DNA of 34,041 nucleotides from contig JADHXV010000005.1 of NCBI GenBank assembly GCA_016782785.1, positions 1-34,041 of the forward strand, in the 5' to 3' direction. The notes beneath the pieces are model-generated. The model was not told where the DNA came from. It saw nothing but the letters and a program-made list of their open reading frames with translations, and did not search any database. A program made the translations under genes and the position numbers. Position 1 is the stretch's first letter; every line of letters begins with the position of its first letter. Below are positions 637 to 33,988 of the stretch, piece by piece. This DNA is from Planctomycetota bacterium. Its GTDB lineage: Bacteria > Planctomycetota > Phycisphaerae > FEN-1346.

Positions 637-1140
637 ATGAAGCGTGCGGCGAAACAAGGTTTTACCCTGGTTGAGATTCTGATTGTGGTCATCATTCTGG
701 GCATCCTGGCGGCCATTGTGATCCCGCAGTTCACCTCGGCCTCGAGCGAGGCCCGCGTCAGCAACCTCATGACCAACCTCCAGACCATCCGAAGCCAGTT
801 GCTGCTCTACAAGACCCAGCACCTCGAGAACTACGCGGCCGACGGTGCCGGCGAGGGCCACGACGAGTTCGAGGACGAGATGTGCTCGTACAGCGATGAG
901 GACGGGGCCACCAACGCTACGCTCGATGCCGACCATCCCTTCGGGCCGTATCTGACGAGCGTCCCCGTCAACCCGCTCTCGGGCGACAACACGGTCCGGG
1001 TGGTCAACAACGCGGCTACGGTGTTCGCGGCGCCTGCGGCTAACGGCGGATGGTACTTCAACGCCGCCACCGGCGAATTCCGGGCCGACCTCGTCGATGC
1101 CCACACCACGACCGACGGCACACTACTGAACGAACTGTAA
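637..1140 (+). CDS. Type IV pilin / major pseudopilin-like prepilin
   Basis: Class III signal KQGFTLVEILIVVIILGILAAIVIPQF; GAAGGAGAT ribosome-binding site at 622-630. Confidence 0.9.
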   Translation: MKRAAKQGFTLVEILIVVIILGILAAIVIPQFTSASSEARVSNLMTNLQTIRSQLLLYKTQHLENYAADGAGEGHDEFEDEMCSYSDEDGATNATLDADHPFGPYLTSVPVNPLSGDNTVRVVNNAATVFAAPAANGGWYFNAATGEFRADLVDAHTTTDGTLLNEL

Positions 1141-1793: not shown

Positions 1794-2329
1794 TGCGGAA
1801 CGGCACTTGCACGGCGGCCGGCACAGGCCGCGCGGGCGGCTTCACCCTGGTTGAACTGATCGTGGTCATCATCGTCCTGATGATTGCGGCGGCCGTGGTG
1901 ATTCCAAACATCGGCACGGCGTCCGACACGCAGGCGACCAGCGCTGCCCGCACCCTGGCTTCGGACCTCGAGATGGCCCGGAACCTGGCCCTGATGACCC
2001 AGCGCCCGCATACGGTGCTGTTCAGCCCGACACGGCAGTCCTACAAGATCGTGGCCGACTACAGCGGCGGCACGTACGCCGCTACGCAGGCCATTCCGCA
2101 CCCGGTGGTGGTCGGCAAGAGGTTCGAGGTGACGCTGGCCGAGCACAACGGCATGGGGAACGTCCAGGTCACGAACGTTTCGTTCGGCGGCGACGCCCGC
2201 GTGACGTTCGACGCCCTGGGCGACCCGTCATCGGCCGGCACCATCACGCTCCAGACCGCCGGCATGCAAATGGAAGTCTCAGTCGCCGGCCTGACGGGCA
2301 GCGTCTCGACGCACCGGGTGACGAACTAG
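1793..2329 (+). CDS. GspH/FimT-like pseudopilin
   Basis: GGFTLVELIVVIIVLMIAAAVVIPNI prepilin motif and GspH-like downstream region. Confidence 0.85.
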   Translation: MRNGTCTAAGTGRAGGFTLVELIVVIIVLMIAAAVVIPNIGTASDTQATSAARTLASDLEMARNLALMTQRPHTVLFSPTRQSYKIVADYSGGTYAATQAIPHPVVVGKRFEVTLAEHNGMGNVQVTNVSFGGDARVTFDALGDPSSAGTITLQTAGMQMEVSVAGLTGSVSTHRVTN

Positions 2330-2346: not shown

Positions 2347-3447
2347 ATGGCCCAGTTGCCCATCGGCGTAGACATCGGAAGCACGGCGGTGCGGCTGGTC
2401 CAACTGTCGGGCAGCCGGCGCGACCTGCGGGTCGTTGACGCCGCCAAGTTCGTCATTCCGCGCGAGGCGATGGCCAGCGACAGCCGGCAGCGGACGTTCA
2501 TCGTCGAGCATCTCCGCCGCCTCGTCAAGGAACGCCGGTTCCGCGGCCGGGAGGCCGTCATGGCCCTGGCGCCGAGCCAGGTGGCTGTCCGCAATATCCG
2601 CATGCCCGACCTGGACGATGAGGAAATCGCCCAGGCCGTCACCTGGGAGGCCCAGAACAAGTTTCCGTTCGACACGGCCACGGCAGTCATCCAGTACCTG
2701 GAGGCCGGCCGGGTGCGCCAGGGCGACGAGGTGCTGGACGAGATCATCGTGTTCGCCTCGCCGCGGGTCGAGGTCGAAAGCCGCATCGAACTGGCCGCCG
2801 AGGCCCGGCTGGAACTGGTCAGCGTCGACACGGTCCCGTGCGCGGTCTTTCGCGGGTTCGAGCGGTTCCTCCAGCGGCGCGAGGACGAGGACATGGTCAG
2901 CGTATTCGCCGACATCGGGGCCGAGACGGCGGTGGCTATCTCCCGCGGCCGGGAGGTCGTGTTCGTCAAGACCATCCCGATCGGGGGCACGCTGTTCAAC
3001 CGGGTGGTGGGCGAGTGCCTGGACCTGGAGCCGGCCGAGGCCGAAGCCCTCCGCCGGCGCATCGCGTCGCGTACGGCCGCCGGCGAGGCCGACCCGCACG
3101 ACCGGGCCGCCCGGGCCGTCGCCGATGCCATCCGGCCGCACCTGGAAGACCTGGCCGACGAAATCGGTCTGTGCCTGCGCTATTACGGCGTGACGTTCCG
3201 CGGCGCGCGTCCGGAACAAATTGCATTCACCGGGGGCGAGGCCCATCACCCGCACGTGACGGCGACGCTGGCCGACCGCCTGGGCATGGAAGCGGCCGTG
3301 GCCGACCCGTTCCGAAACGTGCGGACGGACCACCTGGGCCCGGTGCTGGACCGTCGGGGGATTCGCGCCGAGTGGGCGACGGCGTTCGGTCTGAGCCTGA
3401 AGGGGTTCCACCTGGCCCACGACCACGCGGGCCAGTACGCCGCCTGA
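2347..3447 (+). CDS. pilM: Type IV pilus assembly protein PilM
   Basis: Actin-like fold motifs LPIGVDIGSTAVRLVQL and VFADIGAETAVAIS; position before PilN/PilO-like genes. Confidence 0.85.
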   Translation: MAQLPIGVDIGSTAVRLVQLSGSRRDLRVVDAAKFVIPREAMASDSRQRTFIVEHLRRLVKERRFRGREAVMALAPSQVAVRNIRMPDLDDEEIAQAVTWEAQNKFPFDTATAVIQYLEAGRVRQGDEVLDEIIVFASPRVEVESRIELAAEARLELVSVDTVPCAVFRGFERFLQRREDEDMVSVFADIGAETAVAISRGREVVFVKTIPIGGTLFNRVVGECLDLEPAEAEALRRRIASRTAAGEADPHDRAARAVADAIRPHLEDLADEIGLCLRYYGVTFRGARPEQIAFTGGEAHHPHVTATLADRLGMEAAVADPFRNVRTDHLGPVLDRRGIRAEWATAFGLSLKGFHLAHDHAGQYAA

Positions 3448-3465: not shown

Positions 3466-4056
3466 GTGCGCGAACTCGAATTCTTGCCGGAAGAGTACCT
3501 GCGGGCCCGCTTCCAGCGGCGGATCGGGTTTGTGCGCTCCTGGCTGCTGCTGGCGATCGGGTTGGCGATGGTGCTCTACAGTTTCCAGATGGGGACGTGG
3601 GTCCGCGACGCGCAGGCCGAGTTGGTGGCACTGCGCGGGTCGGGGGCGGCGGTGGCGCCCGACGTCGCCAAGGTCCGCATGCTCCGGGCCGAGGCGCGCG
3701 TGTACAACGAACGGCTCGAGCGGCTCGACGCCCTCCGGCCGGCCCTGGCCGTCACCAACATCCTGGCCGATGTCGTCCAGGCCGTTCCCGACGCGGTGGT
3801 CCTGGAGTGCCTGGACGTGAGCACGTCGCCCGCTGAGTGCGGCGAGAGCCTGACGGTGCGCGTCCAGGGCCTTGCCCGGAGCGAGGAGGGCGTCACCGCG
3901 ATGGTGGCCGGACTCGACGCCTTGCCGCGTTTCACGCAGACGATCCTGGTGGAATCGAGACTGGTCGACGAGACGCCGGACGGCCGGCGGGCTTTCGCCA
4001 TCGAGGCGGAGGTCGTCCCGGAGGCCGCCCCAACGGCGCCGTCCGCCAAGGAGTGA
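3466..4056 (+). CDS. pilN: PilN-like fimbrial assembly protein
   Basis: N-terminal ELEFLPEEY motif, one TM, coiled coil; gene order. Confidence 0.7.
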   Translation: MRELEFLPEEYLRARFQRRIGFVRSWLLLAIGLAMVLYSFQMGTWVRDAQAELVALRGSGAAVAPDVAKVRMLRAEARVYNERLERLDALRPALAVTNILADVVQAVPDAVVLECLDVSTSPAECGESLTVRVQGLARSEEGVTAMVAGLDALPRFTQTILVESRLVDETPDGRRAFAIEAEVVPEAAPTAPSAKE

Positions 4057-4064
4057 GACGAACC

Positions 4065-4703
4065 GTGGCCGAGACCAACGCAACGCGGAAGCCGTCGACG
4101 AACGCCGGGCTCCGGCGACGCTGGGCCGTCGACCGCCGGCAACTGCTCATCCTGCTGGTGGCCGCCGTCATGCTCGCCAGTTTCGGCCTGTTCGTCCTGT
4201 GGCCGAAGCACGAGGAACTGACGCGCCTGGGCATGGCCGTGGGAAACGAGCGGTGCCTGCTGACGCAGCGCGTCTCGGCCAGCCACGAGGGCGTCCTCGT
4301 GTCGGCCCGGATCCCGAGCCTGCGCAAGGCCCGCGACAGCATCGAGCGCCGCCTGCCCGGCGAGCCGAACGTCGCCGAGTTCCTCCGCATGCTGGACGTG
4401 TGTGTGGCCCGGACGCCAACGGTCACGCAAGAGGTGGCCCGGTCGGCCGTCCCGTACACGGGGGGCACGCCGGCCATCGGGCTGTGCCTGATGCTCAAGG
4501 GGCCGTTCCTCGACGTGTACCGCGCCGTGGCCGGCATCGAGGGCATTGAACGGCTCAGCCGGTTCCGGCGGCTGCGGGTCAGCCAGGCCGACGCAGGCGG
4601 CAACGTGGTGGCCGAGGCCGAGATCCTCATCTACTACCTGCCCGACCAGAGCGAGGCAACGAATCAGACGTTGGCCCAGACGCAAGGCGAGACGCGCACC
4701 TGA
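4065..4703 (+). CDS. pilO: PilO-like pilus assembly protein (GTG start)
   Basis: N-terminal TM LLILLVAAVMLASFGLFVLWP and gene order after PilN. Confidence 0.6.
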   Translation: MAETNATRKPSTNAGLRRRWAVDRRQLLILLVAAVMLASFGLFVLWPKHEELTRLGMAVGNERCLLTQRVSASHEGVLVSARIPSLRKARDSIERRLPGEPNVAEFLRMLDVCVARTPTVTQEVARSAVPYTGGTPAIGLCLMLKGPFLDVYRAVAGIEGIERLSRFRRLRVSQADAGGNVVAEAEILIYYLPDQSEATNQTLAQTQGETRT

Positions 4704-4710
4704 GGCCGGC

Positions 4711-5319
4711 ATGAGGGAACCACGAACGATGGCGACACCGTCGAAACACGCGGGCCTTGGGGCAACGCTCCAGGCCTGGTTCTTCGGCGGCCGGCTCCGG
4801 CGGTGGGGGTCGGCGCGGAGCCGCTGGCTGAACGGCGGCCTGACGGTGGCCCTTCTGTTGGCGGGCGTGGTCGCCTGGGTCCTGGCCCTCGTGCAGCCCT
4901 GGACGGTCCGCGCGGCCGACCCCGGCATCGTGCCCGTCAAGGGGCAGTTGACGCCGGACCGGATGCGTGAGGCGGCCGAGGCGGCCAGCCGCGCGCTCGA
5001 CGCCCCGGCCCCGCTGGTGCCCAGGCTCGTTAGCCGGAACCCGTTCCGCTCGGCCGGCGCCCCGGCCGAGCCGCCGACAGCCGGCGGCGAGGCCGACGCG
5101 CTGGGCGTCGCGCCGACGCCCCGCGAGATCGCCGACGTCGTCAAGGACCTGAAACTTAAGGCGACCGTCCTCGGGCCGAACGGCCAGCGGTGGGCGGTCA
5201 TCAACGGCAGCACGTACCAGGAGGGGGAGGAGGTGGCCGGTCTGACGCTTGTCGAGGTCCGGGAAGACCGGGCCAGGCTCCGCCGGGCCGATGTCACGTG
5301 TGTCCTGAAAATGGACTGA
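4711..5319 (+). CDS. GspC/PilP-like inner-membrane protein
   Basis: One TM, then a C-terminal homology-region-like segment LKLKATVLGPNGQRWAVINGSTYQEGEEVAGLTLVEV; immediately upstream of the secretin. Confidence 0.6.
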   Translation: MREPRTMATPSKHAGLGATLQAWFFGGRLRRWGSARSRWLNGGLTVALLLAGVVAWVLALVQPWTVRAADPGIVPVKGQLTPDRMREAAEAASRALDAPAPLVPRLVSRNPFRSAGAPAEPPTAGGEADALGVAPTPREIADVVKDLKLKATVLGPNGQRWAVINGSTYQEGEEVAGLTLVEVREDRARLRRADVTCVLKMD

Positions 5320-5331
5320 GGAGGATGTGTC

Positions 5332-7287
5332 ATGGGGAGGGAGAGACCCCAACAACCGACCATGCGATGGCGACTGTTCCTGACGGCCGCGCTCCTCGTG
5401 GGCGCGTCGGCCGCCGGGGTCCTGGCGGCCGAACCGCCTGCGGCTGCGCCCACGCCACCGCCCGCCGAGACGGCCGCCCAGCCGGGCTCGGCCGTCAGCG
5501 GCAGCGGCAAGATTGAACTGCACGTCAAGGACGATGCCTTGGCCAACGTGCTGGAACTCTTGTCGCAGCAGTACCGGCTGAACATCGTGGCCAGCAAGCA
5601 GGCCACCGGCCGGGTCACGGCCGACCTCTACGACGTGACGGTCGAGGAGGCGCTCGACGCCGTCTGCAAGGCCGCCGGCCTCGGCTGGGTCCGCGAGGCC
5701 AACTGCATCTTCATCTACAGCAAGGAGGAACTCCAGGCCCAGGCCAAGGACGAGTCGCGCCTCGTGACCGAGGTCTTCGAGTTGAACTACCTCTCGTCGG
5801 CCGAGGCCGCCAAACTCCTGGAGCCGGTCAAGAGCGAGAAGGGCACCATCGCCGTCAGCAGCGCGCCGGAAGAGGGCATCCCCTCCGGGGCGGGCGGCGG
5901 CACGGGCGGCAACACCTTCTGCCTGCCCGACACGGCCGTGGTCCGCGACTTCCCCGAGAACGTCGAGCGGATGCGCGAGATCATCAAGAAGATGGACCGC
6001 CGGCCCCGCCAGGTTCTGGTCGAGGCCACCATCATCCAGGTCCAGTTGGACGACACCACGAGCCTGGGCGTCGACTTCAACGCCCTGGCCGGTGTCGATT
6101 TCCGCGACCTCTCCAACACCGCCACGCCCATCACCGACCCGACCATCATCCCCAACAACAACGCCACGACCGTGGACGCCGCCCAGGCGCCGTACGGCCA
6201 GGTGGCCCAGGTCGGGTTCGCCACGCAGGGCACGGGCCTGAACATCGGCGTCATCACCAATAACGTCTCGTTCTTCATCCACGCCCTCGAAACGGTGACC
6301 GACACCACCATCCTCAGCAACCCCAAGGTCCTGGCCCTGAACAAGCAGCGGGCCGAGGTCATGGTCGGCCAACGCCTCGGCTACAAGACCACCACGGTGA
6401 CCGAGACGGCCAACGTGGAGACCGTCGAGTTCCTCGACACGGGCACCCAGTTGATCTTCCGGCCGTTCATCAGCGACGACGGGTACGTCCGCATGGAAGT
6501 CCACCCGGAGGTCTCGTCCGGCGTCGTCGTGGCCGGACTGCCGCAGGAAACCACCACCGAGGTCACCTGCAACATCATGGTCAAGGACGGGCACACCATC
6601 GTCATCGGCGGCCTGTTCGACGAGGACGTCTCGGTCGGCCGGAGCCAGGTGCCGGGCCTGGGGAACATCCCCGGCCTGGGCTGGCTGTTCCGCAGCAAGG
6701 AAGATTCCACCACGCGCAACGAGATCATCGTTCTCCTGACGCCGCACATCATCGCCGACGAGGAAGACGCCGCCGCCCTCGGCGAAAGCATCCTCTCCGA
6801 CGCCAAACGCCGGTGCCTGGGTCTGAGGGAGGGCTTCAGTTTCTTCACCCGCGAACGCATCACCGTCGGCTACGTCCAGAAGGCCGAGGAGGCCTGGGCC
6901 CGGTACCAGCAGAGCGGCGCCAAGGCCGACCTCGACGACGCTCACTGGAACATGCAACTGGCCCTGAACGTGGCCCCGAACAATCTCAAGGCCCTGCGCC
7001 TGAAGGATAAGATCCTCACCGCCCGGACCGGCGAGCCGTACGCCCCGCCCAACGTCACCATCTGGGACAGGCTCCACGACCGGCTGCGGGCCATCGACGA
7101 GGTCCGCGGCGTGACGATGCCTCGCCTGCCGTACTTCCGCGTCCCCAGCCAGGACAAACCCAAGACCGACGCGCCGACCGCCCCCGCGAAGGATGCCCCG
7201 CAAGCCGGCTCCCGCCCGACTAACGAGAAGGCCAGCGCCGAGACGTCCCGCACGACCAAGACGAGGGAGGGAAACCATGCGAGTTAA
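5332..7287 (+). CDS. pilQ: Secretin (PilQ/GspD-like) with C-terminal extension
   Basis: Secretin signature VGRSQVPGLGNIPGLGWLFRSKEDSTTRNEIIVLLTPHII; N-terminal STN/secretin N domains; about 175 aa beyond the secretin core. Confidence 0.85.
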   Translation: MGRERPQQPTMRWRLFLTAALLVGASAAGVLAAEPPAAAPTPPPAETAAQPGSAVSGSGKIELHVKDDALANVLELLSQQYRLNIVASKQATGRVTADLYDVTVEEALDAVCKAAGLGWVREANCIFIYSKEELQAQAKDESRLVTEVFELNYLSSAEAAKLLEPVKSEKGTIAVSSAPEEGIPSGAGGGTGGNTFCLPDTAVVRDFPENVERMREIIKKMDRRPRQVLVEATIIQVQLDDTTSLGVDFNALAGVDFRDLSNTATPITDPTIIPNNNATTVDAAQAPYGQVAQVGFATQGTGLNIGVITNNVSFFIHALETVTDTTILSNPKVLALNKQRAEVMVGQRLGYKTTTVTETANVETVEFLDTGTQLIFRPFISDDGYVRMEVHPEVSSGVVVAGLPQETTTEVTCNIMVKDGHTIVIGGLFDEDVSVGRSQVPGLGNIPGLGWLFRSKEDSTTRNEIIVLLTPHIIADEEDAAALGESILSDAKRRCLGLREGFSFFTRERITVGYVQKAEEAWARYQQSGAKADLDDAHWNMQLALNVAPNNLKALRLKDKILTARTGEPYAPPNVTIWDRLHDRLRAIDEVRGVTMPRLPYFRVPSQDKPKTDAPTAPAKDAPQAGSRPTNEKASAETSRTTKTREGNHAS

Positions 7288-8383
7288 ACGAGCCATCCTC
7301 TGGGCCGCCGTCGTCGCGGTGTTCCTGGCGGCGGGGTGCGACAATCACATGACCCGCAAGCGGAACGAGGCCGGCCAGCGGTGGGCCGAGTCGCGAGCCG
7401 AGATGGTCACGACCCTGGCACGCCGCTCCTACGAGGGCGGCAACTTCAGCCGCGCTCGCGAGCAACTCGACCCCGTGCTCCGCGCCGCCAACCCGTATGC
7501 GCCCGCCTACGTCCTGGCCGCCAGGCTGGCGGCCGACCAGGGACGCCTGGACGAGGCCCGCGACTGCGCCCGCACCGCCGTCGAGGTCAAGCCCGAGGTC
7601 GCCGAGGCCCACTACGTCCTCGGCACCATTGAGCAGACGCTCTCGCACCGGCCGGAGGCGCTGGCGGCATTCGCCGAGGCGGCGCGCCTCGCGCCGACCG
7701 ACCCGCGCTACGCCCTGGCCGAGGCTGAGATGCTCGTCGCCACCGGCCAGGTCGATGCCGCCGCCGTCGGCCTCGAGGCCGCGTCCGACCGCATGCCTGG
7801 GGCGGCCGAGGTGCATGCGGCCCTCGGCGATGTCTTCGCTCGCCAGGGCCGGTACCGCGAGGCCGCGGACCGCTACCGCGTGGCCCTTCGCCTGAACCCC
7901 GAGAACACGGCACCCACCCAGCGCCTGGCGGTGGCGCTGTTCCAGGCGGGGGCGTACGCCGAGGCCGAACCGATCCTGGCCGAGCTCGAGGTGTCCGAGC
8001 CCGACTTCGCCGTCGGATGGATCCGCCTGACGCGGGCCGACTGTCTTCTGGCCCTCAGGCAAGTGGACCGGGCCCGGGCCCTGTACCAGCGGGGCGTCGA
8101 CGCGGCGCCCGATGACGTGGCCCCGCGGGTCGGCCTGGCACGGTGCGACGTCCTGGCTGACCGGTTGACCGAGGCCCAACGCCATCTTGAAGAGGTGCTG
8201 GTCCGTCAGCCCGAGCATCCTGAAGCGAACGGCCTGCTCGGCTACGTCCTGCTGGCCACCGGCCGGCCCGGCGAAGCCGTGCCGCACCTCAAACTTGCCA
8301 GGAACACCCAGCCCGGCCGCGGCCGGGAGACGATCGAACAGTGGCTTGTCCATGCCGAACAGGCGGTCACGCGCACGCCCTAG
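7277..8383 (+). CDS. TPR-repeat lipoprotein
   Basis: Lipobox VFLAAGC; repeated TPR motifs; overlaps the secretin stop by 11 bp. Confidence 0.8.
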   Translation: MRVKRAILWAAVVAVFLAAGCDNHMTRKRNEAGQRWAESRAEMVTTLARRSYEGGNFSRAREQLDPVLRAANPYAPAYVLAARLAADQGRLDEARDCARTAVEVKPEVAEAHYVLGTIEQTLSHRPEALAAFAEAARLAPTDPRYALAEAEMLVATGQVDAAAVGLEAASDRMPGAAEVHAALGDVFARQGRYREAADRYRVALRLNPENTAPTQRLAVALFQAGAYAEAEPILAELEVSEPDFAVGWIRLTRADCLLALRQVDRARALYQRGVDAAPDDVAPRVGLARCDVLADRLTEAQRHLEEVLVRQPEHPEANGLLGYVLLATGRPGEAVPHLKLARNTQPGRGRETIEQWLVHAEQAVTRTP

Positions 8384-8431: not shown

Positions 8432-9946
8432 ATGCCGTTAAGCGCGTCGCCGCGCCCGAGGGGTCGCGGCGGCGCGGGCGTCCGGTGGAGGTTGGTTGGT
8501 GTGATCGAACTGCGGCGCGTGGCGGCCGTTATTCTGCTCTGTGTCGGCGTCGGAGCGGGCCTGCACCTGTTGCTGGACCCGCTCCGCAACGCCGGCCAGG
8601 GCGCCGCCGACAAGGCGTTGACGCTCGGTGCGGGCGCCGCCTTGGCGGTGCTGGGCGCCATCGGGGGGTATCTCATCGCCCGCATCCCCAAGGAGCGCAT
8701 CCGCGACGTGGCCGACCGCCTCGAGGTGCTGGTCCGTCGCGGCAGGGTGGGCATGGCGTTCAGCGACGCCGAGGCCGACGCCCTCGGCCGTTTCGGCCAC
8801 GCTGTCAACCGGTACCTGGCGTTCGTCAAGGACGAGGTCGAGCAGTCGCAGATAGCCGTCAAGGAACGCCAGATCCAGATGAAGGTCCTGGAGGCCGAGA
8901 AGCGGCACGTCGAGGCCGTCATCCACGCCATCAGCGACGGGGTGCTGGTCATGGACTCGTTCAGCGACCTGGTCCTGACGAACGAAGCGGCCAAGGGCAT
9001 CTTCGGTTTCCAGTTCGAGGCCGGGTCGCGCGTGCCCGTGGAAGAGGCCATCACCGATGCGACGTTCCTGGACCTCCTCAGCGAGATGCGCGAGTCGGGG
9101 TCGCTCGTCCCGCACCGGACCGCCGAGTGGAAGCGGGGCGCGGGCGAATGCGAGCGCGCCTACCGCGTCATCCTGAACACCGTTTTCGAGGGCCGCAAAC
9201 GCGACCGCGTCAGCGGCGTCGTGGCGGTTCTGCACGACGTTACGCGCGAAAAGGAAATCGCGCGGGCCAAGAGCGACTTCGTCTCCAGCGTGTCGCACGA
9301 GATGAAGGCGCCGCTGGCCAGCATCAAGGCCTACACCGAGATGCTGGTCGACGGCGACGCCGACGACCCGGCCGAGGCCCGCGAGTTCCTGGTCATCATC
9401 GCCGGCGAGACCGACCGCCTGACCCGCCTCATCGACAAAACGCTGAACCTGAGCCGCCTGGAATCGGGCCTCATCGCGGCCAACAAGGCCGACCTGGCCG
9501 TCACGGAACTGCTGCGGGCAGTGGCCGAGGTCGTCTCGCCGCAGGCTGCGGCCAAGGGCATCCGCCTCGAGGCCGACCTCGCGCCCCTCTTCTTCCACGT
9601 CCACGGCGACCGCGACATGCTGTACCAGGCCATCCTGAACGTCGTCTCCAACGCCGTCAAGTACACGCCCGAAGGCGGCCACGTGGCCATCTCGACGTAC
9701 CTGGATGACGGTGCTGTCGTCGTCGACGTGGCCGACACGGGCATGGGTGTGCCCGCCGACGAAATCGAACGCATCTTCGAGAAGTTCTACCGGTCGAGCC
9801 GGTCGGCCGACACGGCGGCCGGCACGGGGCTGGGGCTGCCGCTCGTCAAGCAGATTGTGGAGACCATACACGGGGGCCGTGTGGCGGTGGAAAGCGAGGT
9901 CGGCAAGGGGTCGGTGTTCCGGCTCTATCTGCCGGCCGTCCGCTGA
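8432..9946 (+). CDS. Membrane sensor histidine kinase (PAS, HisKA, HATPase); start could be GTG at 8501
   Basis: FVSSVSHEMKAPLASIKAY H-box, NVVSNAVKYTPEGG N-box, GTGLGLPLVKQIVE G-box; two N-terminal TMs. Confidence 0.9.
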   Translation: MPLSASPRPRGRGGAGVRWRLVGVIELRRVAAVILLCVGVGAGLHLLLDPLRNAGQGAADKALTLGAGAALAVLGAIGGYLIARIPKERIRDVADRLEVLVRRGRVGMAFSDAEADALGRFGHAVNRYLAFVKDEVEQSQIAVKERQIQMKVLEAEKRHVEAVIHAISDGVLVMDSFSDLVLTNEAAKGIFGFQFEAGSRVPVEEAITDATFLDLLSEMRESGSLVPHRTAEWKRGAGECERAYRVILNTVFEGRKRDRVSGVVAVLHDVTREKEIARAKSDFVSSVSHEMKAPLASIKAYTEMLVDGDADDPAEAREFLVIIAGETDRLTRLIDKTLNLSRLESGLIAANKADLAVTELLRAVAEVVSPQAAAKGIRLEADLAPLFFHVHGDRDMLYQAILNVVSNAVKYTPEGGHVAISTYLDDGAVVVDVADTGMGVPADEIERIFEKFYRSSRSADTAAGTGLGLPLVKQIVETIHGGRVAVESEVGKGSVFRLYLPAVR

Positions 9947-9967
9947 CACGCTGTCCTGGAGGCTGCA

Positions 9968-10345
9968 ATGGCTGCAAGGGTCCTGATAGCCGACGACGAG
10001 CCCTGCATCACGGACGTGGTGTCGCGGAAACTGCGCAAAGAGGGGTTCGAGGTCATTGTGGCGGCCGACGGCCAGGAGGCGTACGAACTCGCCATGGCCG
10101 AACGCCCCGACTTCATCATCACGGACCTCCAGATGCCCCGGATGAGCGGCCTGGAACTGTGCGTCCGCCTCGCCGCCGAACTCGCCGAGCCCGTGCCGAT
10201 CCTGATGCTGACCGCCAAGGGTTTCGAACTCGACCCGGCCGAGATCGCCCGTCTGCCCATCCTGGCGGTTATGACAAAACCGTTCAGTCCCCGCGAACTG
10301 CGCGACAAGGTCTGCCAGGCGCTCCAGGACCTTCGCGCGCCGTGA
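9968..10345 (+). CDS. Stand-alone response regulator receiver domain
   Basis: IADDEP, IITDLQMPRMSG, MLTAKG, MTKPFSP motifs; no output domain. Confidence 0.9.
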   Translation: MAARVLIADDEPCITDVVSRKLRKEGFEVIVAADGQEAYELAMAERPDFIITDLQMPRMSGLELCVRLAAELAEPVPILMLTAKGFELDPAEIARLPILAVMTKPFSPRELRDKVCQALQDLRAP

Positions 10346-10352
10346 GGAACAC

Positions 10353-11885
10353 ATGCCGCCCTCGCTCACAACCACGCTGCCCGCCAAACCGCTCACCGTT
10401 CCGAAGGGGCTCGTGGAGGGCGTTCGCGCGCGGACGGGCGTGGCGGTCCACCTGTTCGACCTCCAGGGTGCGCCGCTCGCGGGGGGTGCCGGCGTCGCCG
10501 ACGGTCCGGCGGGTCCCGCCGACGTCGAGACCCTGAGCCTCCTGGCCCGGGCCGCGATCGCCGACGACGCCGATCAGGGCGACGAGACGCCGGCCGGCCT
10601 GGCCGCCGCCTGGCCAATCCGGATTCGCGGCAAACCCGTCCTCGTGGCGGCGGCGGAACTTGACCTGGGGGGCGCCGCCGACACGGCGGTCGGCCGGCAG
10701 TGCCTGGCCGCCGTCGCCGAGGCCGTCCGCGCCCGCTTCGACGAGGCCGAGCGGACCCGGGAATGCGACTCGCTGACCGAGGCCCTGACGCAGAGTTTCG
10801 AGGAAATTTCGCTCCTGCACAACGTGGGCGAGGTTCTGCGGGTCACGCGGCCCATCGGGGGGTTGCTCGAGTACCTGTGCGCGGAACTGTGCGAGATCAC
10901 GGGGGCCGAGGCCGCCGCCGCCTACGTGCCCGACGCCTCCGGCGGCGAGGCGAACATCGTCGTCCGCGGCGACCTGCCGCTCGCCGAGCAGGACCTGCCC
11001 GCCCTGTTTGGACACGTCGCCGAGACCGCCGCCGAGCATGTGCTCATCAACAATCATTGTCAGGAAGACCCCGCGCTGGCCGCCTTCTCGCCGCACCTTC
11101 GGCAGATGGCCGTCGTCCCCCTGGATTTAGGCGACGGGCCCCCCGGCGCCCTGGCCATTCTGAACCGGGCCGGCGCCGACTTCGACAGCCCCGAGGTCAA
11201 ACTCATCCGGTCCAGCGCCGGCGCCGGCGCCGTCTTCATCGAGAACCGCCGCCTCTACAACGAACTCCAGGCGATGATGCTCGACCTGGTCCGCGCGCTG
11301 GTCTCGAGCGTCGACGCGAAAGACCCGTACACGTGCGGCCACAGCGAGCGGGTGGCCCTGACGGCCCACGCCCTGGCGTGCGAGATGGGCCTGCCCGACG
11401 ACCAGGTCGAGCAGGCGTACATGGCGGGCCTCCTGCACGACATCGGCAAGATCGGCACGCCGGAGGCCATCCTCTCGAAGGAAGGCCGCCTGGCGCCCGA
11501 CGAACGCCGCATCGTCGCCGAGCACCCCGGCATCGGCGGACGCATCATCCACGGCATCCGCAAACTGGAGACCATCCGCGAGGCCGTCATCCACCACCAC
11601 GAACGCATAGACGGGTCGGGCTATCCCGATAATCTTCCAGGCGACGCCATCCCGCCGCTGGCCCGGATCGTCGGCCTGGCCGACGCCTTCGACGCCATGA
11701 CGAGCAACCGCCCCTATCGGCCCATGCTCCCGCTGGACGCCGTCATCCGCGAGATCGAAAAGCACAACGGCACGCAGTTCGACCCGGCCGTCGTCGAGGC
11801 GTTCTTCCGCCTCGACATCGAGAACCTGATGGACCAGTTCGCCGAGCACGCCGCGGCCCGGCGCGCGGAAACCAAGAAAGGCTGA
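10353..11885 (+). CDS. GAF/HD-GYP domain protein (predicted c-di-GMP phosphodiesterase)
   Basis: LLHDIGKIGTPE, HHHERIDGSGYP and LADAFDAMTSNRPYR motifs all intact. Confidence 0.9.
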   Translation: MPPSLTTTLPAKPLTVPKGLVEGVRARTGVAVHLFDLQGAPLAGGAGVADGPAGPADVETLSLLARAAIADDADQGDETPAGLAAAWPIRIRGKPVLVAAAELDLGGAADTAVGRQCLAAVAEAVRARFDEAERTRECDSLTEALTQSFEEISLLHNVGEVLRVTRPIGGLLEYLCAELCEITGAEAAAAYVPDASGGEANIVVRGDLPLAEQDLPALFGHVAETAAEHVLINNHCQEDPALAAFSPHLRQMAVVPLDLGDGPPGALAILNRAGADFDSPEVKLIRSSAGAGAVFIENRRLYNELQAMMLDLVRALVSSVDAKDPYTCGHSERVALTAHALACEMGLPDDQVEQAYMAGLLHDIGKIGTPEAILSKEGRLAPDERRIVAEHPGIGGRIIHGIRKLETIREAVIHHHERIDGSGYPDNLPGDAIPPLARIVGLADAFDAMTSNRPYRPMLPLDAVIREIEKHNGTQFDPAVVEAFFRLDIENLMDQFAEHAAARRAETKKG

Positions 11886-11892
11886 ACACGCC

Positions 11893-12228
11893 ATGACCAC
11901 GATCGCCGATGCCTACGGCAGCATGATGGTCCTGTCGGTGGAGCCCGCCCTGACGAGCCAGGAGCACGAAGCGTTCCGCAAGGCCGCCGGCGAGCAGATT
12001 CGCTCGGGAGGCCGGTGGTTCGTCCTCGACCTCTCGGGCGTCGGCTTCTTCGATAGCCAGGGCCTGGAGGCCCTCGTCTGGTTCCAGGAGCAGGTGGCGT
12101 CGGTGGCCGGCATGGTGAAGGTGGCCGGTCTGAAGGGTCTGGCCCGAAAGACCTTCGAGATCGTCCGGTTCGATAAGAAATTCGAGGTCTTTGCCAACGT
12201 GCACGAAGCCGTGAAGAGTTTCCATTGA
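11893..12228 (+). CDS. STAS-domain anti-sigma-factor-antagonist-like protein
   Basis: FVLDLSGVGFFDSQGLEALV with conserved DSxGL serine. Confidence 0.8.
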   Translation: MTTIADAYGSMMVLSVEPALTSQEHEAFRKAAGEQIRSGGRWFVLDLSGVGFFDSQGLEALVWFQEQVASVAGMVKVAGLKGLARKTFEIVRFDKKFEVFANVHEAVKSFH

Positions 12229-12302
12229 CCGGCCCCGCGCCGGCGCCGGGCGGGGAGCGGCCCACCGGCGGCAGGACGCGGGCCGATGGCAGGAATCCAG
12301 CC

Positions 12303-14072
12303 ATGAGTGCGAATGCGACGACGCGTCGGCGGGCCCGGCTGGGCGACCTTCTGGTCGCCCGGGGCGTCATCTCCGACGAGCAACTTCGCCATGCCCTCGA
12401 GGTCCAGCAGGGCGGCCAGCAGGACCGCCTGATTGGCGAAATCCTCGTCGACCTCGGCTATGCCAGCCAGGAGCAGGTCCTCTCGGCCGTGGCCGAGGCG
12501 TGCGGCGTGCCGTTTGCACGACTTGTGCCGCAGTTGGTCGATTCGGCGGTCCGCAGCGCGCTCCCGGCCTCGTTCATCCAGAAGCACTGTGTCTTGCCGC
12601 TGTTCCGCGTGCGCGACGTGCTGACCGTCGCCATCTGCGAGCCGTCGAACGTCTTCCTGGTGGACGAGATTGCGCACGCGGCCGGCCTGAGTGTCCAGGT
12701 GGTGGCCGCCACCGCCGAGAACATCTACCGGATGCTCGACGAGACGCGTCCGGACGGCCAGGAGACCGCGGCGATGGCCGACGAACCGGCCGCCGGCCTC
12801 TCGCTCGCCGACGGCATCCTGCTGCCGGACGATTACGAGACGATGTACGGCACCTGGCCGGCCGAAAAGGTGGCGGGGCTCTTGATCCGCGAGGCCGTCC
12901 GCGCCCGGGCCAGCGCCATCCACCTGGAGCCCGACGAGAAGGTCCTGCGGATCCGGTTCCGGATCGACGGCACGCTGCACGTGGTGATGCGTCCGCCGGC
13001 CCGTCTGGCCGAGGGGTTGGCGGCGGCGTTCTGCGAGATGCTGGGCGTCTCGGCCAGCGGCAGCCAGGTCCCCGACCATCACCGCAGCGCCCGGTTGCTT
13101 GTCCAGGGCCAGCCCGTCCAGTTGCACGTGACGGGGCTGGGCGGGGCGTTCGGCCGGCGGACCGTGGTCCGGCTGGTTCGCGAGGACGAGGCCACCCGAC
13201 CGCTCGAAAAACTCGGCTGCGACTTCCGCCTGCTCTCGGCCTACCAGGACCTGCTGGCCGAGCCGCGCGGCCTCGTCCTGCTGGCCGGACCACGCGAAAG
13301 CGGCGTCACCACCACGCTCTACAGCACGCTGGGGGCGCTGGACCCGGTCCGGCTGAACGTCTGCACGTTCGAGTCGTCGGTCCACTTCGCCCTGCCGGGC
13401 GTCAACCAGTTTTCGCCGGCGACATGCGGGACGGCGGAGGCGGCCGAGGTGCTGCCGCGGCTCCTGGGCCAGCAGCCCGACGTCCTGGCGCTGGACGGCG
13501 TGCTCGACGGCCGCATCGCACCGCACGTGCTGGAAACCTCGCTGGAAGGGCGGCTGGTGGTGGCCCAGATTCGCGCGATGGACGCCGCCGACGCCGTCGC
13601 CCGGATGTCGGCCCTGGTGCCGCCGGACCTGCTGGCCGAGGCGCTGCGGGGCGTCCTGGCCCAGCGGCTGGCCCGGACGGTCTGCCTGCATTGCCGCGTC
13701 AGCCACGAGCCGCCGGCGGCGCTCAGGCGGCGCGTCGGCCGCACCTTCGGCCCGGTGGAGGAGTATGTCAACGGGCGGGGCTGCTCGAACTGCGGCCAGA
13801 CGGGGTTCCTGGGGCGCATCGGCCTGTTTGAACTGGCGCCGATGGACGCCGGCTTCTCGGACCTGGTCCGCCGCCGCGCCTCCCCCGAGGCGCTGCGGCA
13901 GTCGATTCGCGAGGCGGGTCATCCGTCGATGTGGATCGATGGCATCAACAAGGTGCGGGCGGGAATCACGTCGATCGAGGAAATCCAGCGCGTCCTGGTG
14001 GGGTGCCCGGGCGGTCTGGCCGACGCCGTGCCGGCCGAAGAGGCGGCCGCTACTCCCGGACGTTCTCCTTGA
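12303..14072 (+). CDS. PilB/GspE-like protein with MshEN-like N-terminus and degenerate ATPase motifs (putative pseudo-ATPase)
   Basis: RLGDLLVARGVISDEQLRHALEVQ MshEN-like; ASAIHLEP; GPRESGVTTTLY at the Walker A position; LLGQQPDVLALDGVLDG at the Walker B position; CLHC...CSNC zinc motif. Confidence 0.85.
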   Translation: MSANATTRRRARLGDLLVARGVISDEQLRHALEVQQGGQQDRLIGEILVDLGYASQEQVLSAVAEACGVPFARLVPQLVDSAVRSALPASFIQKHCVLPLFRVRDVLTVAICEPSNVFLVDEIAHAAGLSVQVVAATAENIYRMLDETRPDGQETAAMADEPAAGLSLADGILLPDDYETMYGTWPAEKVAGLLIREAVRARASAIHLEPDEKVLRIRFRIDGTLHVVMRPPARLAEGLAAAFCEMLGVSASGSQVPDHHRSARLLVQGQPVQLHVTGLGGAFGRRTVVRLVREDEATRPLEKLGCDFRLLSAYQDLLAEPRGLVLLAGPRESGVTTTLYSTLGALDPVRLNVCTFESSVHFALPGVNQFSPATCGTAEAAEVLPRLLGQQPDVLALDGVLDGRIAPHVLETSLEGRLVVAQIRAMDAADAVARMSALVPPDLLAEALRGVLAQRLARTVCLHCRVSHEPPAALRRRVGRTFGPVEEYVNGRGCSNCGQTGFLGRIGLFELAPMDAGFSDLVRRRASPEALRQSIREAGHPSMWIDGINKVRAGITSIEEIQRVLVGCPGGLADAVPAEEAAATPGRSP

Positions 14073-14934
14073 CCTGTTCGATCTTCTTCAGAATCCGGGC
14101 GCGTTCGCGCTTGCCCTTCTCGTCCTTGTCGGAAATCTTGTCGTGCACTTGCCGGTACATCTCCAGGGCGGTCTTGGGGTCGCCGCCCTGCAGGAAGGCA
14201 TCGGCCACCTTCTCGGCGAACTTGGTGTCGCTGTACCGCTGTTTCTCGGGCTTGGCTTCGAACAAGGCCTTGTACAGCGCCAGCGAGTGCTTGTAATCGC
14301 CGAGACGGTGGTACATGTCGGCGATGGACTCGGTCAGTTCGTTTTCCTTGAGCCGCTCGCTCTCGGGGATCATGGCGTACACCTGGAGGTAGTGCGCGAG
14401 GGCCGGCCGCCATTCGCCCGCCTGCTCGTACAGGTTCGCGATCTTCTCCAGGTTGGTCCGGTGCTTGCCCATGACGCGCGACGCCACGCCCTCAACCTGC
14501 ACCTTGATCGGCTCCGGGGCGTCCTGGGTCTTCTGCTGGAGTTGCTGGACCTGCTTGATAAGCGGCAGGAACTGGGCGTCGAACCGCTGGACCTGCTGGG
14601 CCGAGGCCACGATGAACGCCTTGAACTTCATCAGGTCGCCGGACCGATCGCCCTTGGCGAGCCGGCCGGGAACCTTGCTGGGGTCGTCGACGAGGCTGTT
14701 GGCCTTCTGCTGCATCTCCATGATCTTGCCCATCAGGGCGAATTCTTGCTGCTGAAGGGCCGAGAGCCGCTCGTCGATGACCTGGATCTTCTTGCTGATT
14801 TCCTCGCTTTCGCTCTCGGTGTCGCCTTCGCGCGTGTACGCGCGGGCGCCGGCGGCGCTGCCGATCAGGACAGCGGCCGCGGCCGCGAGCAGCACCAGCC
14901 GCCGCACCGACGATGTCGGACGATCGTTTCTCAT
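14050..14934 (-). CDS. Secreted/periplasmic TPR protein
   Basis: N-terminal signal sequence LVLLAAAAAVLIGSAAGARA; TPR-like repeats; converges on and overlaps the PilB-like gene by 23 bp. Confidence 0.7.
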   Translation of the reverse strand: MRNDRPTSSVRRLVLLAAAAAVLIGSAAGARAYTREGDTESESEEISKKIQVIDERLSALQQQEFALMGKIMEMQQKANSLVDDPSKVPGRLAKGDRSGDLMKFKAFIVASAQQVQRFDAQFLPLIKQVQQLQQKTQDAPEPIKVQVEGVASRVMGKHRTNLEKIANLYEQAGEWRPALAHYLQVYAMIPESERLKENELTESIADMYHRLGDYKHSLALYKALFEAKPEKQRYSDTKFAEKVADAFLQGGDPKTALEMYRQVHDKISDKDEKGKRERARILKKIEQVKENVRE

Positions 14935-25368: not shown

Positions 25369-26520
25369 ATGCCGCTCAGTCACCTGTCGCGCCGGCGTTT
25401 CCTGACGGGCGCTGCCGCCGGCGCCGCCTTGGCCGCCTCCGCCCCCGCGAGCCTGGCCGCTCGGGCCGCAGCACCCGCACCGCCCGCTCCGGCCTCTCCC
25501 GCCGCTCCCGCCGCCGCGCCGCCGCCTGGGGAGGCCGACGAGCGCGGCGCCCAGCGGCTCACCCTCGAGGCGCTTCGCCGGTGGGAATCGCTCGGCTACG
25601 GCATGTTCATCCACTTCGGCCTGAACACGTTCGTCGGCAAAGACATCCCCCGGACCGACCCGCCGGCGGCCGCGTACGCCCCCGACCGTCTCGACGTGGA
25701 CCAGTGGGTCTCCGTCGCCCGCGATGCCGGCATGAAGTACGCCGTCCTGACGGCCAAGCACACCACCGGCCACTGCCTCTGGCCCAGCGACCACACCGAC
25801 TACACGGTGGCCAACAGCCCCGTCAAGACCGACGTGGTCGGAGCGTTCGTCAAGGCGTGCCGGCGGGCGGGCCTCTTGCCGGGCCTGTACTACTGCTCGT
25901 GGGACGACCACCACATGTTCGGCGGCCAGACGCCGGCGGTCGTCAAGTGGTCGCCCATCATGAACCGGTTCCCGAAGCCCGGCGAGGCCCTCGCGCCGTT
26001 CACCTCGTCGCTGTACCAGTCGTTTCAGACGGCCCAACTGGAGGAACTCATCGCCCGCTACGGGCCGCTGGCCGAGATCTGGATCGACATCCCCGGCGTC
26101 CTCGGCCGCGGGTACCGGACGTTCCTGTATCAGCACTTGGCTGGCCTCCAGCCGGAGGCGGTCATCATGATGAACTCGGGCATCGGCTCGGGCGAGAAGT
26201 ACGACGTAGCCTACGCCTGGCCGTCCGACCTCATCGCCATCGAACGCCGCATGCCGCCCGAGACCGGCCACCGAACGTGGCGAACCATCGAGGGGCAACG
26301 CTACTATGTGCCGGGCGAGGTGTGCGACCCCATCAGCAGATACTGGTTCGGGATGGAGGGCGACGCCGCCCGGCCCGTCGACGCCTTGGCCGAACAGGTC
26401 ACGGCCTGCCGGCAGCGGGGCGTCAACGTCCTGCTGAACGTCCCGCCCGACAAGCACGGCCGGATCCCCGACGGGCACGTGCAGGCGCTGGCCCAGTTGC
26501 GCAAGCGCCTGAACCTGTGA
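25369..26520 (+). CDS. GH29-type alpha-L-fucosidase-like protein, Tat-exported
   Basis: Tat motif SRRRFLTG; LGYGMFIHFGLNTF, YAVLTAKHTTGHCLWPS, LPGLYYCSWDDHH, AEIWIDIPG. Confidence 0.8.
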   Translation: MPLSHLSRRRFLTGAAAGAALAASAPASLAARAAAPAPPAPASPAAPAAAPPPGEADERGAQRLTLEALRRWESLGYGMFIHFGLNTFVGKDIPRTDPPAAAYAPDRLDVDQWVSVARDAGMKYAVLTAKHTTGHCLWPSDHTDYTVANSPVKTDVVGAFVKACRRAGLLPGLYYCSWDDHHMFGGQTPAVVKWSPIMNRFPKPGEALAPFTSSLYQSFQTAQLEELIARYGPLAEIWIDIPGVLGRGYRTFLYQHLAGLQPEAVIMMNSGIGSGEKYDVAYAWPSDLIAIERRMPPETGHRTWRTIEGQRYYVPGEVCDPISRYWFGMEGDAARPVDALAEQVTACRQRGVNVLLNVPPDKHGRIPDGHVQALAQLRKRLNL

Positions 26521-26577
26521 CCGTGCGACGCGCGCCGCCGCCCGCGAGCGTTTTTCGAGCCGCGTGCGTTTTTCGAG

Positions 26578-26597
26578 CCGCGACCGGAAGGTCGCGG
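26578..26597. repeat. REP-like hairpin CCGCGACC-GGAA-GGTCGCGG
   Basis: Same stem as 25232-25251 with a different loop, in opposite orientation by flanks. Confidence 0.6.
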
Positions 26598-26650
26598 GGA
26601 CGACCGAACCTCGGCGTGCGCCCGGGGCGCACCGGCGAAAGGAGTTTCCG

Positions 26651-27979
26651 ATGCCGCTGGGTCCCCTCTCGCGCCGCCGATTCCTGACGAACGCCGCCGG
26701 CGCCGCGGCGGGCGCCGCCGTCGTCGCCACCGCCGCTCCCGCGGTCCTTGCCGCCCCGCGGGGTGCGCCGCGCGCCGCCTCGTACGACGGCCGCGACGCC
26801 TCCGCCGCCTGGCGCGAGGCCGCCCATCGCCGCATCGACCAGCACCGCAAGGCGGACCTCGCCGTCACGGTGACCGATGCGGACGGCAAGCCGTTGCCCG
26901 GCGCGCAGGTGACCGTCGCGATGCGTCGGCACGCGTTCGGGTTCGGCTCGGCCGTGGCGGCGGACTGCCTCGTCGGCGAGCGCGATGACCACAAGCGGTA
27001 CCGCGAGACCGTCCGCACGTCCTTCTCGAAGGTCGTCTTCGAGAACGACCTCAAATGGCCGCAATGGGAAGACCCCGCCAACCGGGCCCGGACGCTGAAG
27101 GCGCTGGATTGGCTGGAAGGCGAGGGCATCGTCGTCCGCGGCCACTGCCTGGTCTGGCCGTCGTGGCGCCGCATGCCGGGGGACGTGGCCGGCCTGAAGG
27201 ATGACGAGCCCGCCCTGCGCCGCCGCATCGCCGGCCACGTGCGCGACGAGGTGTCGGCCCTGAAGGGACGCATCGCCGACTGGGACGTCATCAACGAGCC
27301 GTTCTGGAACCACGACGCCATGGACGTGCTCGGCCAGGACGCCATGGTCGAGTGGTTCAAGACGGCCCGTGCGGCCGACCCCGCCACGGTCCTCTACCTG
27401 AACGACCAGAACATCCTGGCAGGCGGCGGCACCGACGCCGCGCACCAGGATCACTACGAGCGGACCGCGCGGTACCTGGTGGACCAGGGGGCCCCGCTGG
27501 GCGGCCTGGGCATGCAGTGCCATTTCGGGGGCAACCTGACGCCGCCCGAACGGATGCTCGCGCTGCTGGACCGCTTCGCCGCCTTCAACCTGCCCATCCA
27601 GATCACCGAGTTTGATATCAACACCAGTGACCGCGACCTCCAGGCCGACTACTTCCGCGATTTCCTCACGGCCGCGTTCAGCCACCCCCAGGTCGCGGGT
27701 ATCGTGATGTGGGGCTTCTGGGCCGGCCGGCACTGGAAACCCGAGGCCGCCCTCTTCGAGCGCGACTGGACGCTTCGGCCGCACGGCCAGGCGTGGCGCG
27801 ACCTCGTCCTCGGGCGCTGGTGGACCCGCGCCAGCGGCCCCGCGGACGCCCGCGGCCGGTTCGCCGCGCGCGGCTTCCTCGGCACGTACGAGGTGACCGG
27901 GACCGCCGGCGGCCGGACGAAGACCGTTCCCGCGGCGCTCGGCCAGGACGGGGCGACCGTCACGGTCCGCCTGGACTGA
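26651..27979 (+). CDS. GH10 endo-1,4-beta-xylanase, Tat-exported
   Basis: Tat motif SRRRFLTN; FENDLKWPQWE, GHCLVWPSWRRMP, DWDVINEPFW (acid/base), IQITEFDI (nucleophile). Confidence 0.88.
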   Translation: MPLGPLSRRRFLTNAAGAAAGAAVVATAAPAVLAAPRGAPRAASYDGRDASAAWREAAHRRIDQHRKADLAVTVTDADGKPLPGAQVTVAMRRHAFGFGSAVAADCLVGERDDHKRYRETVRTSFSKVVFENDLKWPQWEDPANRARTLKALDWLEGEGIVVRGHCLVWPSWRRMPGDVAGLKDDEPALRRRIAGHVRDEVSALKGRIADWDVINEPFWNHDAMDVLGQDAMVEWFKTARAADPATVLYLNDQNILAGGGTDAAHQDHYERTARYLVDQGAPLGGLGMQCHFGGNLTPPERMLALLDRFAAFNLPIQITEFDINTSDRDLQADYFRDFLTAAFSHPQVAGIVMWGFWAGRHWKPEAALFERDWTLRPHGQAWRDLVLGRWWTRASGPADARGRFAARGFLGTYEVTGTAGGRTKTVPAALGQDGATVTVRLD

Positions 27980-32531: not shown

Positions 32532-32713
32532 GCGCGGCGCCTTGCCTGGTCGCGTGGCACGGAGGATAATGCCCCGACGCGCAAAACGCAAGAGAAGGCC
32601 TGGCCCCCGACTTCCTACCGGGGCTTGTGGGAGCCGGTTTTTTGCGGTTCCCTTTTTCGCCCGGCGGGCTAAAGATGGTAAGCCAAACCGACCCGCGTTT
32701 CAGGGGTGAACGT

Positions 32714-33988
32714 ATGCGACAGACTTTTCTGCTGGCGACGACCGCCGGTCTGCTGGCCGCGATGGCCGTCACTCTGCCGACCGCGACGGCCGCGGCCGAA
32801 GAGTGGCCCGCCTGGCGCGGGCCCCGCGGCGACGGCACCAGCACCGAAACCGGCGTCCCCCTGCGCTGGAGCGCCGACGAGAACGTCGCCTGGAAGACGC
32901 CTATCCCCGGCAAGGGCCACTCCTCGCCGGTCGTCTGGGGCGACCGCGTCTTCGTCACCACCTGCATCGAAGAGCAGGGCGCGCGGCTGCTTCTGTGCCT
33001 CGACCGGCGCACCGGCAAGGTGCTTTGGAAGCGGCCCGTTCTGACGGCCCCGCTCGAGAAGAAAAACAAACTGAACTCGTACGCCTCGAGCACGCCCGCG
33101 ACCGACGGCCGGCACGTCTGGGTCACCTTCCTCGACGCGCCGCACCCGCGCGTGGTCTGCTACACCGTCGACGGCGAGGAGGTCTGGCGCGCCACGCCCG
33201 GCGAGTTCCACTCCATGCACGGCTACTGTTCCAGCCTGATACCGTATAAAGACATGATCATCCTGAATGCCGACCAGGACGCCGTCCTGCCGCTGCGGGC
33301 CTACATCGTGGCGTACGAGAAGGCCACCGGCAAGGAACGCTGGCGCATCGACCGGCCGAACCGCGTCCGCTCGTACACGCCGCCCGCCATCTTCCAGGCC
33401 GCCGGAAAGATGCAACTGGTCGTCTCGGGCGCGAAGTGCGTCGCCTCGTACGACCCCGACACCGGCCGGCAGCACTGGCTCATCGACGGGCCCACCGAGC
33501 AGTTCTGCGCCAGCCTCGTCTTCACCGATGGCCTCTTCATGATGACCGGCGGCTTCCCCGAGTTGCACATCATCGGCATCCGGCCGGACGGCACGGGCAA
33601 CGTGACCGACACGCACGTGGCGTGGCACATCGAGAGCCGTACGATTGCCTCCTACGTGCCGTCGCCCATCGCCGAGGGCAAGCACTTCTTCGTGGTGTCC
33701 GACGCCGGCCTGGCCACGTGCCTCGAGGCCGCCACCGGGCGGATCCTCTGGTCCGAGCGCCTCGGCAAGCACCACAGCGCCAGCCCCGTGTCGGCCGAGG
33801 GCCGGCTGTATTTCCCGGACGACGCCGGCACGATGCACGTTGTCCGTGCGGGCTCGGAGTTCGAGGTCCTGGCGCGCAACGACCTGGGCGAAGAGTGCCG
33901 CGCCTCGCCCGCCATATCGGGCGGCCAGATATTCCTCCGCGGCCTCCGGCACCTGTTCGCCATCGCGAAGGGTGACGAAACCCAATGA
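32714..33988 (+). CDS. PQQ-binding-like beta-propeller repeat protein, secreted
   Basis: Signal peptide; WPAWRGPRGDGTSTETGVPLRWSADENVAWKTPIPGKGHSSPVVWGDRVFVTT; repeated LLCLDRRTGKVLWKRP-type blades. Confidence 0.88.
   Translation: MRQTFLLATTAGLLAAMAVTLPTATAAAEEWPAWRGPRGDGTSTETGVPLRWSADENVAWKTPIPGKGHSSPVVWGDRVFVTTCIEEQGARLLLCLDRRTGKVLWKRPVLTAPLEKKNKLNSYASSTPATDGRHVWVTFLDAPHPRVVCYTVDGEEVWRATPGEFHSMHGYCSSLIPYKDMIILNADQDAVLPLRAYIVAYEKATGKERWRIDRPNRVRSYTPPAIFQAAGKMQLVVSGAKCVASYDPDTGRQHWLIDGPTEQFCASLVFTDGLFMMTGGFPELHIIGIRPDGTGNVTDTHVAWHIESRTIASYVPSPIAEGKHFFVVSDAGLATCLEAATGRILWSERLGKHHSASPVSAEGRLYFPDDAGTMHVVRAGSEFEVLARNDLGEECRASPAISGGQIFLRGLRHLFAIAKGDETQ

Follow-up and report, generated by a model that had tools for sequence, protein, structure and literature searches.

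Two-component input to a phosphodiesterase of cyclic diguanosine monophosphate (c-di-GMP), with an effect on type IV pili, is known from Xanthomonas, where RpfC/RpfG (HD-GYP) and PdeK-PdeR work in this way. The receiver is there fused to the enzyme or to other domains, the genes are not known to lie in a pilMNOPQ-pilB operon, and neither system is known to include a STAS protein. Here we describe a comparable cassette in a 34,041-nucleotide stretch of DNA (contig JADHXV010000005.1, positions 1 to 34,041; hereafter the window) from a Planctomycetota metagenome-assembled genome (MAG) of 2.68 Mb that is 75% complete. In the window, a histidine kinase (HK), a single-domain receiver (RR), a GAF-HD-GYP protein and a stand-alone STAS protein are encoded in series between a type IV pilus gene set and the gene for a PilB-like extension ATPase that has lost its catalytic residues (pseudo-PilB).

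Several described systems resemble parts of this locus. In Myxococcus xanthus, PilB is a signalling protein for exopolysaccharide, and Walker mutants separate its signalling role from its role in assembly (PMC5544727; review PMC11656802). The likeness would lie in a PilB that affects a process other than pilus assembly; however, the M. xanthus protein is an intact motor, whereas the window protein naturally lacks all the catalytic boxes as well as a PilC neighbour. Vibrio cholerae MshE (PMC5013675) has an N-terminal domain of the same family, and motif I of that domain is complete in the window's family, but in the window protein motif II is without Gln61, the spacer has 7 residues instead of 5 and the ATPase is dead. 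Acinetobacter baylyi (PMC8213720) likewise has more than a single extension motor, PilB and TfpB, and one of the two is under a protein regulator, the inhibitor CpiA; PilB and TfpB are nevertheless both described as motors, and no two-component, HD-GYP or STAS cassette is described there. In the HsbA-HsbD system of Pseudomonas aeruginosa (PMC5085249), an anti-anti-sigma (STAS) protein binds a c-di-GMP enzyme, with an effect on type IV pili. A STAS protein that works with a c-di-GMP enzyme is what it shares with the window cassette; the system lies outside a pilus operon, its enzyme is a cyclase and no pseudo-motor takes part. Our literature searches for a Planctomycetes pilus/HD-GYP/STAS system, which covered few subscription journals, returned no description of the combination. 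From the comparisons below, we think that the window probably holds a class-wide pilus-control cassette whose motor has become a non-hydrolysing regulatory subunit in one family.

A signalling cassette ahead of PilB

As a query, the pseudo-PilB found a match in each of the 61 nearest genomes, and among the matches a group of orthologues is distinct from the paralogues; about 143 of the 298 genomes sampled from the class have a clear orthologue of this slot PilB (our count from the match list). Gene order in these relatives, as read from the retrieved regions by tblastn and by profile search, follows a shared string that runs from PilM or the secretin through TPR, HK, RR, HD-GYP and STAS genes to PilB. 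The exact contiguous order HK-RR-HD-GYP-STAS-PilB is present in 101 of the 115 loci outside the window's family that have upstream sequence, and these come from 20 families of the class; taken singly, STAS is present in 113 of the 115, HD-GYP in 107, RR in 105 and HK in 102, as counted from profile matches to stop-to-stop frames. Because the same order recurs in more than 100 genomes, it is beyond chance. A first-pass annotation of the window had called for such a survey of co-conservation with the pilus genes and would have withdrawn its proposal if relatives had no synteny; the order above is what the survey returned. The genes of this part of the window are the following.

646..1140 (start approximate), + strand: pseudopilin-like gene (N_methyl; PF07963 E=2e-7, residues 57-81 of open reading frame (ORF) 478-1140)
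1832..2329 (start approximate), + strand: GspH-like pseudopilin gene (PF12019 E=7e-9; PF07963 at residues 213-235 of ORF 1196-2329)
2347..3447, + strand: PilM (PF11104 E=2e-36; syntenic in relatives)
3466..4056, + strand: PilN (PF05137 E=6e-9)
4065..4703, + strand: PilO-like, by position and conservation (identity 47-51% in family loci, 26% in L055); no Pfam match
4711..5319, + strand: protein in the PilP position, T2SSB/T2SSC-like (PF16537 E=2e-6, slightly under the cut-off; PF11356 E=0.002)
5332..7287, + strand: secretin in the PilQ position (PF00263 E=1e-42)
7277..8383, + strand: TPR protein between secretin and kinase (TPR families; present in most loci)
8432..9946, + strand: histidine kinase with weak PAS (HisKA E=6e-18; HATPase_c E=8e-30; PAS E=2e-4, under the cut-off)
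9968..10345, + strand: single-domain receiver (PF00072 E=8e-25, over 125 aa)
10353..11885, + strand: GAF-HD-GYP protein (PF13487 E=6e-39, with HD_5/HD also named; GAF_2 E=4e-7)
11893..12228, + strand: stand-alone STAS protein (PF01740 E=8e-13)
12303..14072, + strand: pseudo-PilB, with MshEN, dead T2SSE and zinc Cys motif (PF00437 E=1e-60; PF05157 E=6e-13)

The ORFs bear out the earlier description of five tightly spaced plus-strand genes behind a PilM-N-O-P-Q-like set, except that a TPR gene stands between secretin and kinase, and Pfam matches and motifs agree with the domains it had named: a PAS kinase, a lone receiver, a GAF/HD-GYP protein, a STAS protein with its Ser and a dead MshEN ATPase. 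The frame of the last gene is likewise real, although its start had been set at TTG 12225; ATG 12303 is likelier, because the MshEN motif starts about 10 residues on and the orthologues align from there. With the TTG start the gene overlaps STAS, and with the ATG the two are 74 bases apart. The upstream set has the composition of a type IVa pilus operon from PilM to secretin (PilM, PilN and secretin by Pfam, PilO and PilP by position), and the active PilB with PilC that belongs to such an operon is missing at the window locus. Our operon scan gave no sigma-70 promoter-like match and terminators at chance level.

It could be held that the HK, RR, HD-GYP and STAS genes are functionally unrelated neighbours of a pilus operon. 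We regard this as very improbable: their order is kept in 20 families and partly also in families of the phylum outside the class, where the orthologues have the same setting, and in the window the genes are a few bases apart (HK-RR 21, RR-HD-GYP 7 and HD-GYP-STAS 7 bases). Phospho-acceptor and metal-site residues of the cassette are kept throughout. Across loci the kinase conserves its H, N and G boxes, and the receiver, which has no output domain and so resembles CheY-like single-domain regulators, keeps its acceptor Asp in 31/31. Both HD-GYP motifs, HDxGK and HHExxDGxGYP, are intact in the window (LLHDIGKIG and HHHERIDGSGYP) and conserved across loci, so that the window protein is a predicted c-di-GMP phosphodiesterase by motifs; in the relative L061, the N-terminal region of the protein is PocR-like (PocR E=2e-7). 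The Asp-Ser of the STAS protein (FFDSQGL in the window), the acceptor Ser of SpoIIAA-like proteins, is kept in 29/29 orthologues. A cognate anti-sigma-type kinase or phosphatase was not found within the operon, the rest of the genome not having been searched. A STAS phospho-switch is possible, with a conserved Ser yet an operon lacking the partner kinase.

The position of the HD-GYP gene is instructive in its own right, since in two other families of the phylum it is occupied by a GAF-GGDEF cyclase. Five loci of one genus (L337, L338, L341, L344, L346) have a GAF-GGDEF protein with intact GGEEF between receiver and STAS; in L345 the GGDEF protein at this position has a degraded signature, and in L339, L340 and L342 the receiver is followed by STAS directly. 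Synthase and hydrolase thus exchange at one operon position, which therefore looks like a site of c-di-GMP turnover, and we take this as good evidence. GGDEF proteins are encoded in every genome tested, including four in the window's own. The suggestion in the first-pass annotation that c-di-GMP is tuned locally through the HD-GYP protein appears well founded, because the genes are co-conserved, the phospho-acceptor and metal-site residues are kept and a GGDEF cyclase can be swapped in.

Of the cassette genes, STAS has the closest tie to the PilB motor, because family f14 has lost HK, RR and HD-GYP and retains STAS before PilB. Only the kinase is absent from the slot in L055 and L073. As a separate observation, STAS-PilB-PilC is retained and HK, RR and HD-GYP are gone in L075, L291, L297, L298, L302 and L305.

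Catalytic residues and selection in the dead PilB

The catalytic boxes of the window PilB are replaced by GPRESGVTT (Walker A Lys gone), DVLALDGVLD (catalytic Glu, Walker B), FESSVH and LEGR..QIRA (Asp box and His box lost), and its zinc cysteine pairs are retained. Of the orthologues outside the window's family, 121/121 keep an intact Walker A, whereas 6/6 inside it have lost this motif and the other catalytic boxes as well; the motor is intact in both genomes of the sister family, which belongs to the same order. On this comparison the dead motor is a derived state of the window's family and not the general state of the system, contrary to the earlier view of the pseudo-ATPase as a standing part of it (0/121 dead outside the family). 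Two other accounts of the protein were considered and rejected: ATPase loss as the norm of the operon, by the 121 intact orthologues, and a separate paralogue, because the protein occupies the orthologous slot and branches within the slot clade. In a quick tree, in which the amino-acid composition of the dead rows deviates, the six dead PilBs form a single clade (SH-like approximate likelihood ratio test, 100) nested among intact slot PilBs, with a stem length of 1.57 changes per site. Divided by the mean distance among other loci, the stem comes to 1.57 for PilB and 0.14-0.37 for PilM, secretin, TPR, HK, RR, HD-GYP and STAS, which makes the PilB stem branch about 4-11 times longer than that of other operon genes.

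The losses are not spread over the protein. There are 116 columns that are at least 95% conserved in intact PilBs, and the family keeps 69 of them; all 47 lost columns fall in residues 190-446, which hold N2D with the Arg-finger region, Walker A, Asp box, Walker B and His box, and 0/35 are lost in the MshEN and C-terminal zinc parts (Fisher p = 1.6e-10). An AlphaFold model of the pseudo-PilB (13 sequences; predicted local distance difference test score, pLDDT, 78) matches Geobacter PilB (5tsh) in Foldseek with a template modelling (TM) score of 0.89 of the target. The protein therefore has the PilB/GspE fold (N1D/MshEN, N2D, CTD and tetracysteine) and common descent with that group, without its catalytic motifs. 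Its ratio of nonsynonymous to synonymous substitution rates (dN/dS) is about 0.27-0.41 by a rough Nei-Gojobori estimate, within the range of the neighbour genes.

These data bear on the possibility that the locus is a relic, in a family from which this pilus is disappearing: with the motor dead and PilC the first gene to go, the rest would be on its way out and the pseudo-PilB would be idle. The joint loss of motor catalysis and PilC, the long PilB stem and the other intact motors in these genomes would fit such a course. It is nonetheless unlikely, as every complete copy, from several genera, has an open frame, dN/dS is like that of the neighbours, the losses stop at the catalytic core with the other 35/35 conserved positions kept, and PilM-Q, HK, RR, HD-GYP and STAS remain intact without acceleration. 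To us, the dead PilB looks like a pseudoenzyme under renewed purifying selection rather than a gene in decay.

Further degraded ATPases came to light. The slot PilB of L306 (G209) has partly degraded catalytic boxes (EDTIG, VSEIRD, LTGD, HTPD) with the Walker A Lys kept, and may represent a separate motor loss at an early stage. A second dead traffic-ATPase family, with boxes such as GPKNSGVTTTLH and DVVGFDSLYD, is found in both families of the order (L312:1651-2802, - strand; L316:3130-4278, + strand; matching stretches of L311, L313, L314 and L315), and it adjoins a short T2SSE protein with intact motifs in the 3 genomes checked.

MshEN, the missing PilC and a second pilus locus

The MshEN motif consists of two 24-residue halves and a 5-residue spacer, and the Arg and Gln of each half contact c-di-GMP (PMC5013675). 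In the window, motif I (RLGxx..G..L...L..Q) is complete (RLGDLLVARGVISDEQLRHALEVQ) with Arg9 present, and RLG and Gln32 are found in 5/5 family members that have this part. Motif II instead has Leu at 38 and Ala at 61 and follows a spacer of 7, where a receptor would have Arg38, Gln61 and a spacer of 5. At position 61 nearly all slot orthologues have Ala, Gly, Ser, Thr or Cys, with no Gln counted, and every slot orthologue, dead or intact, has a spacer lengthened by 2 residues. The 4 MshEN ATPases elsewhere in the window genome retain Gln61 and the normal spacer. Because Gln61 is absent and the spacer is longer, binding and direct reading of c-di-GMP by the slot MshEN are doubtful, and with them the reading function that had been assigned to the pseudo-ATPase.

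The first-pass annotation had combined these parts into a chain, in which a two-component input tunes c-di-GMP through the HD-GYP protein, the MshEN of the pseudo-ATPase binds it directly and transmits the signal, and STAS provides a phospho-switch. Gene order, the intact HD-GYP, the GGDEF/HD-GYP swap and the complete motif I, Arg9 and Gln32 included, speak for it. Set against them are a motif II that departs from the published 24-5-24 arrangement in all slot orthologues, a pseudo state that is not general and an operon without a STAS kinase, and we consider the chain in this full form rather doubtful.

A further change at the locus concerns PilC. Outside the window's family, PilC follows the intact PilB, either immediately or one gene further on, in 107 of the 112 loci with room for it, whereas T2SSF (PilC) adjoins the pseudo-PilB in 0/4 of the family loci whose downstream sequence is at least 2.4 kb long. 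PilT, which is present by PilB in many other loci, is likewise missing beside the pseudo-PilB in this family. Relocation of the slot PilC within the family was considered, but the PilC tree there gives only the second-locus type and unrelated types, so loss is likelier. A TPR gene (window 14050-14934, - strand) lies right behind the pseudo-PilB, where relatives have PilC, and has a homologue at that place in L048, L049 and L051.

The second locus (L085 in G005 and L084 in G007) comprises PilM, two or three small genes (N-O), PilB, PilT and PilC, and its PilB is intact. A secretin was not found on the second-locus contig in G002, G004, G005 or G007. Labour may be divided between the two loci: the window operon would supply secretin and regulation, and the second locus the motor and the platform.

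Active motors elsewhere also raise the possibility that the pseudo-PilB is still a motor subunit, in mixed hexamers or stacked rings with the active PilB of another locus, in the manner of PilT-PilU. The fold and many conserved positions are retained, active PilBs are encoded elsewhere in the genome, and there are precedents both in PilT Walker mutants, which still work together with PilU (PMC11656802), and in the two cooperating extension motors of A. baylyi (PMC8213720). As the Arg-finger-region and Asp-box residues are lost as well, and the neighbouring PilC is gone, we find this arrangement rather unlikely. Elsewhere in the window, alpha-L-fucosidase-like and GH10 genes stand side by side (25369-27979), and a PQQ-propeller protein is encoded at 32627-33988.

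Proposed role of the pseudo-PilB

From gene content, synteny, residue loss and retention, branch acceleration and the GGDEF/HD-GYP swap, all of which are observed, we infer protein contacts, a direction of control and a motor in trans as follows. We read the locus as a type IVa-like pilus operon of Planctomycetota to which a regulatory cassette is dedicated. Most of the class still shows what we take to be the ancestral form, in which the PAS histidine kinase would phosphorylate the single-domain receiver, which would act on the GAF-HD-GYP protein, lowering c-di-GMP locally, and/or on the stand-alone STAS protein; STAS would gate the extension motor PilB, with PilC and often PilT following in the operon. 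The window's family would have left this form when ATP binding and hydrolysis and the Arg-finger-region residues were lost together with the neighbouring PilC, the MshEN and zinc parts being kept. The pseudo-PilB is then most likely a non-hydrolysing subunit or adaptor that docks on the PilM/N/O platform and, under the control of STAS and the two-component input, may hold or release the apparatus for an active motor in trans. A candidate source of that motor is the second locus, PilM-N-O-PilB-PilT-PilC, with intact motors and without a secretin on its contig.

Some observations weigh against this proposal. No copy of the second locus was found in the genome of the window, which is 75% complete, and the locus is also present in G007, a relative with an intact motor; it has therefore not arisen as a replacement. 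Within the family the dead PilB evolves 2-3 times faster than other genes, relative to intact orthologues, and its second MshEN half-site is degenerate, so that the HD-GYP output may run via contacts or via another receptor. Finally, the compared genomes are fragmented MAGs with short contigs.

Taken one step further, an extension motor turned into a dedicated pseudoenzyme regulator, which together with its cassette gates a pilus driven by the motor of another locus, would be a natural split of PilB signalling from the motor role; we put this forward tentatively, with less than even confidence. The question of whether PilB has a separate signalling role has so far rested largely on point mutants of M. 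xanthus, and in the literature searched we found no description of pilus regulation in Planctomycetota. A lineage that has lost just the catalytic core, and has kept the rest of the protein and the signalling cassette, would make the question testable with natural proteins, and a class-wide cassette with a synthase/hydrolase swap would offer a clean system for local c-di-GMP control of Planctomycetota pili.

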